Virus record (IMG/VR): IMGVR_UViG_3300042691_031027
Span: 1-61,617 of that record
Strand: one strand, 5' to 3'
DNA length: 61,617 bases
Origin: a virus
Below, piece after piece: positions 25,122 to 61,617 of this stretch (its first letter is position 1; every line of letters starts with the position of its first letter). The notes under the pieces were generated by a model. That model did no database searches. It was not told the origin of the DNA and was given only the letters and a program-made list of their open reading frames with translations. The translations under genes were made by a program, and so were the position numbers.

Positions 25122-25153
25122 TTGTTTTTTATTTATACGTATTGTTAATTTAG

Positions 25154-25222
25154 TAATCAGGACAGGAATCGAACCTGTTATCGTCCTTTTGATCAGCCGT
25201 GTCTCCAATACGCCACCTGACT
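25154..25222 (-). tRNA. Irregular tRNA-like gene, 69 nt, identity unresolved
   Basis: Acceptor AGTCAGG with CCTGATT and discriminator A; T arm ACAGG TTCGATT CCTGT; a D arm CGT-ATTGGAGAC-ACG. The segment between D and T arms is only 19 nt (GCTGATCAAAAGGACGATA). It contains ATCAAAA, which looks like a Leu(CAA) anticodon loop, but its flanks do not pair. Third member of the AGTCAGG group. Confidence 0.5.
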
Positions 25223-59408: not shown

Positions 59409-59438
59409 GAAAAATAGCAACTCAATAAAGAGTTGCTA
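59409..59438 (-). terminator. Rho-independent terminator after tmRNA
   Basis: Minus strand TAGCAACTC, loop TTTATT, GAGTTGCTA, followed by TTTTTC. A perfect 9-bp stem located ten bases after the tmRNA 3' end. Confidence 0.88.
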
Positions 59439-59447
59439 ATTTCGCTG

Positions 59448-59818
59448 TGGAGATGGCGGGAATCGAACCCGCGTCTCCAAAAGTAAAAATAACATTAGCG
59501 TATCACATGCTTAGTACTACTTGCGTTGCACCGTAATTAGGGAACTAACCAGTAATTAGTTAGAACGCTCCACCACCTAGTTTTGAGAAAATTAGGAAAA
59601 CAAATGCTGTTCTGTTGCAAGGTTCTCAGCTACCCCGGTCGATTAAGCCGCTACTGCGTACTCATCCGCTCCTACGAAAGACATCATGTCTTCGAAGGTC
59701 CAAGTAGAAAGTTCTACGTTGTCGTTTATTGGTTTGTTCAGATATTAAAGTGGATTAGAACCATACCACTGCATGTAATGTTACCTTTCTCATCTGGATC
59801 AAGTCCATGTCATCCCCT
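59448..59818 (-). ncRNA. ssrA: Transfer-messenger RNA (tmRNA), tag ADEYAVAA
   Basis: 371 nt. The 5' end GGGGATGACATGGACTTGAT pairs with the 3' CATCTCC; the T arm is GCGGG TTCGATT CCCGC and the discriminator is A; CCA not encoded. The tag frame (59643-59669 with stop) reads GCG GAT GAG TAC GCA GTA GCG GCT TAA, giving ADEYAVAA, preceded by TAGGA, as expected for the resume-codon context. The tag ends in AVAA, matching the -ALAA/-AVAA ends recognised by ClpXP-type proteases. The remaining nucleotides form the pseudoknot-rich body. Rescues stalled ribosomes with host SmpB. Confidence 0.93.
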
Positions 59819-59820
59819 AA

Positions 59821-60012
59821 TTACTTAACTGTGTATTTAAGTGCTTCTTCTGTTGTGATTGTATCTACTTTAGTAGAATCACATTTAATAGAGTCACACT
59901 TAGTTGAATCACATTTAACAGATGTTGAATCAGTTTTAGTTGTTTCTGTAGTTGTACTTCCACCACATGATACGAGAGCTACAAGAGCTACAAGAGCAAA
60001 AAATTGTTTCAT
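59821..60012 (-). CDS. Short repeat lipoprotein
   Basis: 63 aa. Lipobox FFALVALVALVSCGGS followed by Thr/Ser/Lys-rich sequence and three five-residue Cys-containing repeats (KCDST KCDSI KCDST), encoded by a 15-nt tandem repeat. It ends three bases before the tmRNA 5' end, so both could be on one transcript. Function unknown. Confidence 0.62.
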   Translation of the reverse strand: MKQFFALVALVALVSCGGSTTTETTKTDSTSVKCDSTKCDSIKCDSTKVDTITTEEALKYTVK

Positions 60013-60357: not shown

Positions 60358-60360
60358 GTG

Positions 60361-60446
60361 TACCTTAGGACGGGGTCGAACCGTCACGGCCGTTTCGGGC
60401 CACAGGATTTTAAGTCCTGCGTGTCTACCTATTCCACCACCAAGGC
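60361..60446 (-). tRNA. tRNA-Leu (TAA anticodon)
   Basis: 86 nt: acceptor GCCTTGG with CTAAGGT (two G-U pairs), anticodon arm CAGGA CTTAAAA TCCTG, long variable arm (GGCC...GGCC), T arm GACGG TTCGACC CCGTC, discriminator A. UUA is a favoured codon in an A/T-rich genome. Confidence 0.92.
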
Positions 60447-60826: not shown

Positions 60827-61617
60827 TTAGAATCCCATTCCTGGATCACCAAACCCTTCCTCTTTTTTATCTTTTGTTGGTTCATCATGAACAACAGTTT
60901 CTGTAGTTAATATAGTACCGGCTACAGCAGCTGCATTTTCAACGGCTAAACGAGTTACTTTAGTTGGATCTAAAATACCAGCGTCAAGCATATCAACAAA
61001 AGTTTCTGTTTTTAAATCGTAACCTTTCCAATTATCTAAATTACCTTCACCTAATTCATACAAATACCTTTCTGGTGTTTCATAACCAGCATTTTTAAGA
61101 ATTTGAGTGAATGGTGATGATAATGCTTTATGAACAATTTTCTTACCTGTTTTAATATCATCACTTTCATCTTCTCCATATGTAATAGCTTCTCTAGCAT
61201 ATAATAAAGCAGCTCCACCTCCAGGTAATACTCCTTCTTCTACAGCAGCGCGAGTGGCGAATAAAGCATCTTCAACTCTATCTTTATACTCTTTCAACTC
61301 AATTTCATTATTACCACCTACATTGACAATAGCTACTCCACCAACTAATTTACCTAAACGTTCTTGTAGTTTTTCTTTTTCAAACATTGATTGAGCAGTG
61401 TCAATTTGAGCCTTAATTTCTTCAGCTCTAGCAGTAATAGCTTCTTCAGTTCCTTTACCATCAACAACAGTTGTTTTATCTTTAGTCACATTAACTGTTC
61501 TTGCTTTACCTAAGTAAGCTGATAATTGAGCTACTGTTAATTTGTCTAGTTTTAATCCTTTTTCTTTACTAATAACTTGACCACCAGTGACAATAGCTAA
61601 ATCTTCTAATAACAATG
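60827..61617 (-). CDS. groEL: GroEL-like 60-kDa chaperonin, partial (5' end outside window)
   Basis: At least 263 residues, corresponding to about residues 285-end of E. coli GroEL. IVTGGQVISKEKGLKLDKLT, EKEKLQERLGKLVGGVAIVN, VEDALFATRAAVEEGVLPGG (with the ATPase Asp), and VTRLAVENAAAVAGTILTTE are all present. It ends GFGDPGMGF without the long GGM tail of cellular GroEL. The apparent start near 61615 is an internal TTG; the frame is open to the window end. Folds phage or host proteins during infection. Confidence 0.93.
   Translation of the reverse strand, partial: LLLEDLAIVTGGQVISKEKGLKLDKLTVAQLSAYLGKARTVNVTKDKTTVVDGKGTEEAITARAEEIKAQIDTAQSMFEKEKLQERLGKLVGGVAIVNVGGNNEIELKEYKDRVEDALFATRAAVEEGVLPGGGAALLYAREAITYGEDESDDIKTGKKIVHKALSSPFTQILKNAGYETPERYLYELGEGNLDNWKGYDLKTETFVDMLDAGILDPTKVTRLAVENAAAVAGTILTTETVVHDEPTKDKKEEGFGDPGMGF

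Follow-up and report, generated by a model that had tools for sequence, protein, structure and literature searches.

The window analysed here, a stretch of 61,617 nucleotides, belongs to a viral record with baseplate wedge, endolysin and surface-sugar genes. On its minus strand, at 59447–59817, it carries a complete one-piece tmRNA (ssrA) gene, on which ARAGORN and Rfam agree. The RF00023 covariance model aligned over its complete length (positions 1–374) with 84.1 bits (E 3.6e-31), the gathering threshold being 47 bits, and it is virtually certain that the tmRNA is real. A preliminary description of this DNA had proposed a phage-encoded tmRNA and had named the Infernal model as its check. The proposal holds, the record being viral, and both of the ends it read are present, one base away from the 59448–59818 it gave.

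The 5′ acceptor strand GGGGAUG (59811–59817) pairs with CAUCUCC (59449–59455), G3-U included. The discriminator A lies at 59448, and CCA is not encoded. A G3-U pair in the acceptor stem specifies alanine. The tRNA-like domain, in which ACUAAGCAUGU is present, has an intact T arm both in the sequence and in the model alignment, as had been read earlier, and is without an anticodon arm. Pseudoknot 1 (PK1) occupies 59736–59770 (stem 1 AGUGG/CCACU, stem 2 GUUC/GAAC). Seven different sequences of stem 1 were found among relatives, all perfectly paired and at the same position, so that the stem covaries. The middle part of the molecule, containing PK2–PK4, aligned weakly to RF00023, with a mean accuracy of 0.59 and many broken pairs.

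The neighbouring features are also on the minus strand. The tmRNA is followed by an intrinsic terminator (59415–59438), a 9-bp hairpin with a T run. Upstream, a 63-aa lipoprotein-like ORF (59821–60012), with a signal containing LVSCGG and no Pfam match, ends 3 nt before the tmRNA. It is preceded by tRNA-Leu (UAA) at 60360–60446 (ARAGORN, Rfam); the terminator and these two neighbours had been recognised correctly before. A tRNA-Glu is also located upstream, and the C-terminal half of a GroEL/Cpn60 gene (60827–61615), cut by the window edge, lies upstream of the tRNA/tmRNA cluster. Elsewhere in the window, ARAGORN called a 'tRNA-???' with a two-base anticodon (25153–25222, minus strand), which has no Rfam support and is probably spurious.

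Flavobacterium phage immuto and Microcystis phage Mel-JY01 are the named phages nearest in baseplate, each with an identity of about 45%. Immuto, the closest named isolate from a Bacteroidota host by baseplate and endolysin, has no tmRNA and no ClpP. A Shine-Dalgarno-like sequence is present at 5 of the 82 gene starts in the window, and, like those of Bacteroidota, the starts are rich in A and poor in G. From these starts the virus, a large phage, is judged probably to have a Bacteroidota host. A flavobacterial promoter motif was not above shuffles in the window.

Resume site and reading frame of the tag

In E. coli tmRNA, translation resumes 12 nt past pseudoknot 1, at a codon whose frame is determined by A86, located four nt before it (PMC2481249). 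By this rule the resume codon in the window is GAC (59723–59721) in the sequence AAUAAAC-GAC, 12 nt downstream of PK1, with the conserved A at −4 in the context UAAAC (59724–59728), which is the same in relatives. From GAC, a frame of 26 codons encoding DNVELSTWTFEDMMSFVGADEYAVAA runs to UAA (59643–59723). Judged by PK1 spacing and by relatives, this 26-aa peptide is almost surely the tag, translation resuming at GAC 59723.

The alternative is a short tag, ADEYAVAA (59643–59669 with its stop), resuming at GCG 59669. It is called by ARAGORN and was given in the preliminary description, with TAGGA-GCG as the resume context, and UAGGA-GCG is indeed similar to UAGUC-GCA. However, GCG 59669 lies 66 nt past PK1 instead of 12, relatives keep the preceding codons at the peptide level along with the resume context at the PK1-proximal site, and ARAGORN itself picks the long tag in L115, L136, L218 and others. 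ADEYAVAA thus comprises the last 8 codons of the 26-codon frame, and as a full tag, rejected on PK1 spacing and on the peptide-level conservation upstream, it is hardly credible. In L039, L133, L220 and the window, ARAGORN gives the C-terminal end only of long tags (AEEAPVVA, ATSTVAVA, ADYAVAA and ADEYAVAA, respectively); annotated viral tags may therefore be systematically truncated.

A run of 18 open codons, as in the disputed part, is expected by chance in about 4 of 10 cases. As the open frame is unremarkable alone, it was tested by conservation in relatives, which were gathered among viral contigs through the neighbouring endolysin gene, independently of the tag, and then scanned for tmRNA. 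A tmRNA over the cut-off was present in 12 of the 50 endolysin-relative records, and the tags found include DNTELSDWTFDDMMSFIGADYAVAA (L115/L138), DAKSTMTFDDLMAFVGADYAVAA (L136) and DEMSTMTFDDLMAFVGADYE (L140). Between the window and the relative L128, 15 base changes fall in the 18 disputed codons and 14 of the 18 residues are kept, against 8.7 ± 1.4 expected with the same changes placed randomly (P 2.5e-4). Two of the synonymous changes, CTT/TTA and TCT/AGT, require two steps each, and one whole codon is deleted in-frame in the C-terminal part of the L128 tag. Over 12 core codons, pN/pS was 0.18 in the tag frame, whereas the two other frames gave 1.8 and 2.5, as calculated on the small unbiased set of four tag-independent tmRNAs. 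These comparisons argue that the tag core, TFEDMMSFVGAD, is in all likelihood selected as a peptide.

Conservation of the core for RNA structure or for efficient tag translation, and not for the peptide, would be suggested by a hairpin, GAAGACA/UGUCUUU, seen by inspection in the tag region of the window. In L128 the register of this hairpin is lost and synonymous codons are swapped, so that it was ruled out as a conserved object. The low pN/pS confined to the tag frame likewise opposes this reading, which we consider very improbable.

Distribution of long tags and comparison with known tmRNAs

The degenerate core pattern TF[DE]D[LM]M[AS]F[VI]GAD was searched in viral contigs and prokaryote genomes. 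Matches were obtained in 52 viral contigs and in none of the 84,980 bacterial and archaeal genomes. They consist of a short frame behind a similar resume context, with a tag-like C-terminus at the end. RF00023 matched 41 of the 48 core-pattern records re-scanned (39 over the cut-off), and several of those lacking a match end at a contig edge. In most core-tag relatives examined, tRNA-Leu (UAA) precedes the tmRNA, as in the window. The C-termini vary (YAVAA, YALAA, DYALAA, EYAYAA, EATFA, YE), the majority of relatives retaining YAVAA or YALAA. To some extent this contrast of a constant core with a variable end follows from the method, since the large tag set was collected by a pattern that fixes the core residues; only the four tag-independent tmRNAs show it free of this bias. 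The tag of one contig (G035; L140/L204) has the full core and ends GADYE, with no ssrA-like degron, and could stem from an error in sequencing or from decay of the gene.

A second long-tag type, GN[VTI][LYF]xKMxxxGL... (as GNVLxKMxxxGL...), of 20–22 aa, occurs in at least about 119 viral contigs. Among the second-type viral matches listed, 92 passed a simple check of the tmRNA 3′ domain, and nearly all of the listed matches failing it show the same short tags. The pattern was also met on 16 bacterial contigs, where the matches are not tmRNAs, and no bacterial tmRNA with the second type was found. A shared M-x-x-x-G, seen by eye, only suggests that the core tag and the second type may be homologous.

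The tags of 67 sampled Bacteroidota tmRNAs have a median length of 9 aa, with 66 of them at 8–12 aa. The sole long one, a 19-aa tag (ANNTPVYAMNSVPVYSLAA), was called in a cellular tmRNA of a Bacteroidota genome (L415). Bacteroidota ssrA (RF00023) resembles the window tmRNA in being one-piece and in its G3-U acceptor, PK1, resume rule and C-terminal YAxAA. Its tag is about 9 aa, whereas that of the window is 26 aa with an extra conserved core, and the RF00023 score is 84 bits for the window versus about 131–205 in the Bacteroidota genes compared. Against the form of a short Bacteroidota tag (8–12 aa, with a hydrophobic residue followed by AA at the end), the ending alone fits: the final YAVAA resembles the YALAA of Bacteroidota, and the main difference is the added core. 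The tag had earlier been held to be unlike those of Bacteroidota; this is true to a greater degree than was claimed, owing to the core, but the sequence then given was the C-terminal third only.

The tag could have been inherited from a host lineage having the same long tag, one without a genome in the collection. With no core pattern among the prokaryote genomes, second-type matches in genomes that are not tmRNAs, and short tags in the sampled Bacteroidota, the chance of such an origin is small indeed.

Phage-encoded tmRNAs are known in actinobacteriophages of Mycobacterium and Streptomyces (PMC4131195). As in the window, the tmRNA is carried by the phage in actinobacteriophages and in Bacillus phage G; their annotated tags are about 9–13 aa (e.g. 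ANSNFALAA, AADVAADYAAVGA), and no core in common with the window was seen. Ribosome-rescue genes for tmRNA and SmpB are also known in huge phages, and the passages of that account which deal with them assign the tmRNAs with ARAGORN and do not discuss the tags (PMC7162821). Huge-phage records hold endolysin or baseplate relatives and three carry a tmRNA, of which two have short tags and one a 36-aa frame. In a 484-kb phage (LR756508; L237), the PK1-proximal frame gives a 36-aa tag, GVNNADYESAGFTAEDFAQMDGESLYHGSERKPAAV, where ARAGORN gives GRRKPLSW. Permuted-type tmRNA calls in other viral contigs (L009, L027) have a 26-aa tag, GATIYDEMINGLQVATSERVSGLVMA.

A tblastn search of named phages with the window tag, insensitive with a 25-aa query, gave no match, and no tag strings were found in papers. 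No report of conserved long virus-only tags was found in a literature search that covered a minority of subscription journals, and such tags appear to be unreported so far.

Clp and SmpB genes and the role of the tag

ClpP was found in 17 of 46 phage records, SmpB in one (G027, 430 kb) and the SspB adaptor in none. The ClpP of core-tag phages is diverged and in several is encoded about 3.5–4.5 kb upstream of the tmRNA; in the copy examined, Ser and His are conserved and Glu is at the Asp position. Bacterial-like ClpP is present in five second-type or jumbo phages and a ClpC-like unfoldase in six. In three second-type phages, the tmRNA is preceded at about 2.3 kb by the gene of a ClpC-like unfoldase without the N-domain (minus strand; L454 3337–5361, L455 3410–5452, L456 3355–5403). 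ClpP is located elsewhere in most of the second-type phages having ClpC near the tmRNA. The ClpC-like copy of G013, a protein of 674 aa, combines two AAA domains with a UVR motif and with a VGF loop, which we take to be ClpP-docking. About 2.3 kb separate its gene from the downstream tmRNA, and two genes on the opposite strand lie in that interval. The protein is below the curated NCBIfam cut-offs for ClpA/ClpB, and 'ClpC-like' is therefore a reading of domain order. A 440-aa AAA protein of a core-tag phage (G006) was considered as a ClpX-like unfoldase and proved to be MoxR/CbbQ-like instead.

The jumbo phage G027 (L210, L141/L462, L461, L212) carries a tmRNA-like gene, SmpB, a ClpC-like unfoldase and ClpP. 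Its tmRNA match is weaker, at 38 bits not reaching the cut-off, and the tag can be read as GKNNVWESINAFGTPVAKTELAIAA; by gene content, this would be a nearly complete set for trans-translation and degradation. In the window, a 61,617-nt fragment ending inside the GroEL gene, ClpP is absent, and tblastn detected neither SmpB nor a complete Clp unfoldase. Linkage of a protease to the tmRNA is limited to some relatives, and these are all fragments.

A conserved cluster surrounds the diverged ClpP and the tmRNA in L217 (2172–2711 and 5516–5842), and its order is kept in L218–L223: diverged ClpP, a protein of about 100 aa, others, tRNA-Leu (in most), a paralogue of that small protein, and the tmRNA immediately after it. 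The small protein bears a conserved EEYELCAEIKK end; neither it nor the protein of about 105 aa that directly precedes the tmRNA of ClpP-type phages matches Pfam at the default cut-off. In L223 (G067), 24 tRNA genes lie between the ClpP gene and the core-tag tmRNA, with a single dense array accounting for 23.

Taken as a whole, the best explanation, and a likely one, is a working phage tmRNA whose tag combines the usual degron with a virus-specific recognition element. Host SmpB and alanyl-tRNA synthetase would bring the phage tmRNA into stalled ribosomes, translation would resume at GAC 59723 as predicted from the conserved signals, and Ala followed by DNVELSTWTFEDMMSFVGADEYAVAA would be appended to the stalled product. 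The terminal YAVAA would act as a host ssrA-like degron for ClpXP, and the core TFEDMMSFVGAD, on which selection is shown, may serve as the second, virus-specific element. Most likely it would dock tagged products to a particular protease or to an adaptor, encoded by either host or phage, giving the phage control of stalled-product turnover during infection. Docking is preferred, as a tentative reading, on two grounds: the core precedes the terminal degron, in the place where the adaptor SspB binds its tag in E. coli, and Clp subunits are encoded by related phages. The different fate that the preliminary description had suggested for tagged products, through changed proximal residues, would have in the core a concrete candidate element.

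The main rival to docking on a Clp machine takes the long tag for an extended degron of Lon (or FtsH). The Mycoplasma tag is 26 aa long and has Asp as its first residue. Like that of the window, it extends well past about 10 residues; the Mycoplasma tags end in AFA, are without the ALAA degron and have been switched to Lon (PMC3985003). The core is hydrophobic and aromatic, and an ATFA end is found on some phage tags, in few relatives. Yet the window tag retains a Clp-like YAVAA end in place of AFA and has no sequence in common with that of Mycoplasma, and ClpP and ClpC occur in related phages. Bacteroidota, moreover, have ClpXP. A Lon or FtsH degron is thus unlikely.

A role other than degradation, in which the core would act as a targeting or otherwise functional peptide and the C-terminal degron would be optional, is favoured only because of copies such as the one ending GADYE, to which the EATFA endings of other relatives may be added. 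Since most core-tag relatives keep YAVAA or YALAA, and the GADYE ending belongs to a single, possibly erroneous or decaying contig, such a role is improbable.

Docking of the core could go further. Large phages might run a private tagging–degradation pathway, in which the virus-specific core is read by a phage Clp machine (ClpP, joined by ClpC in the second type and by SmpB in one phage) distinct from host ssrA/ClpXP. This possibility is a doubtful one; if true, the virus would control stalled proteins apart from the host route.

The virus-only tmRNA tag families described here are conserved and are 2–3 times longer than the tags of the likely hosts. They have been partly hidden, as the standard tool gives the C-terminal end only. 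Should the core prove to be a docking signal, protein-degradation tools would gain a new degron, and whether phages rewrite the fate of ribosome-rescue products is a question that can now be tested.
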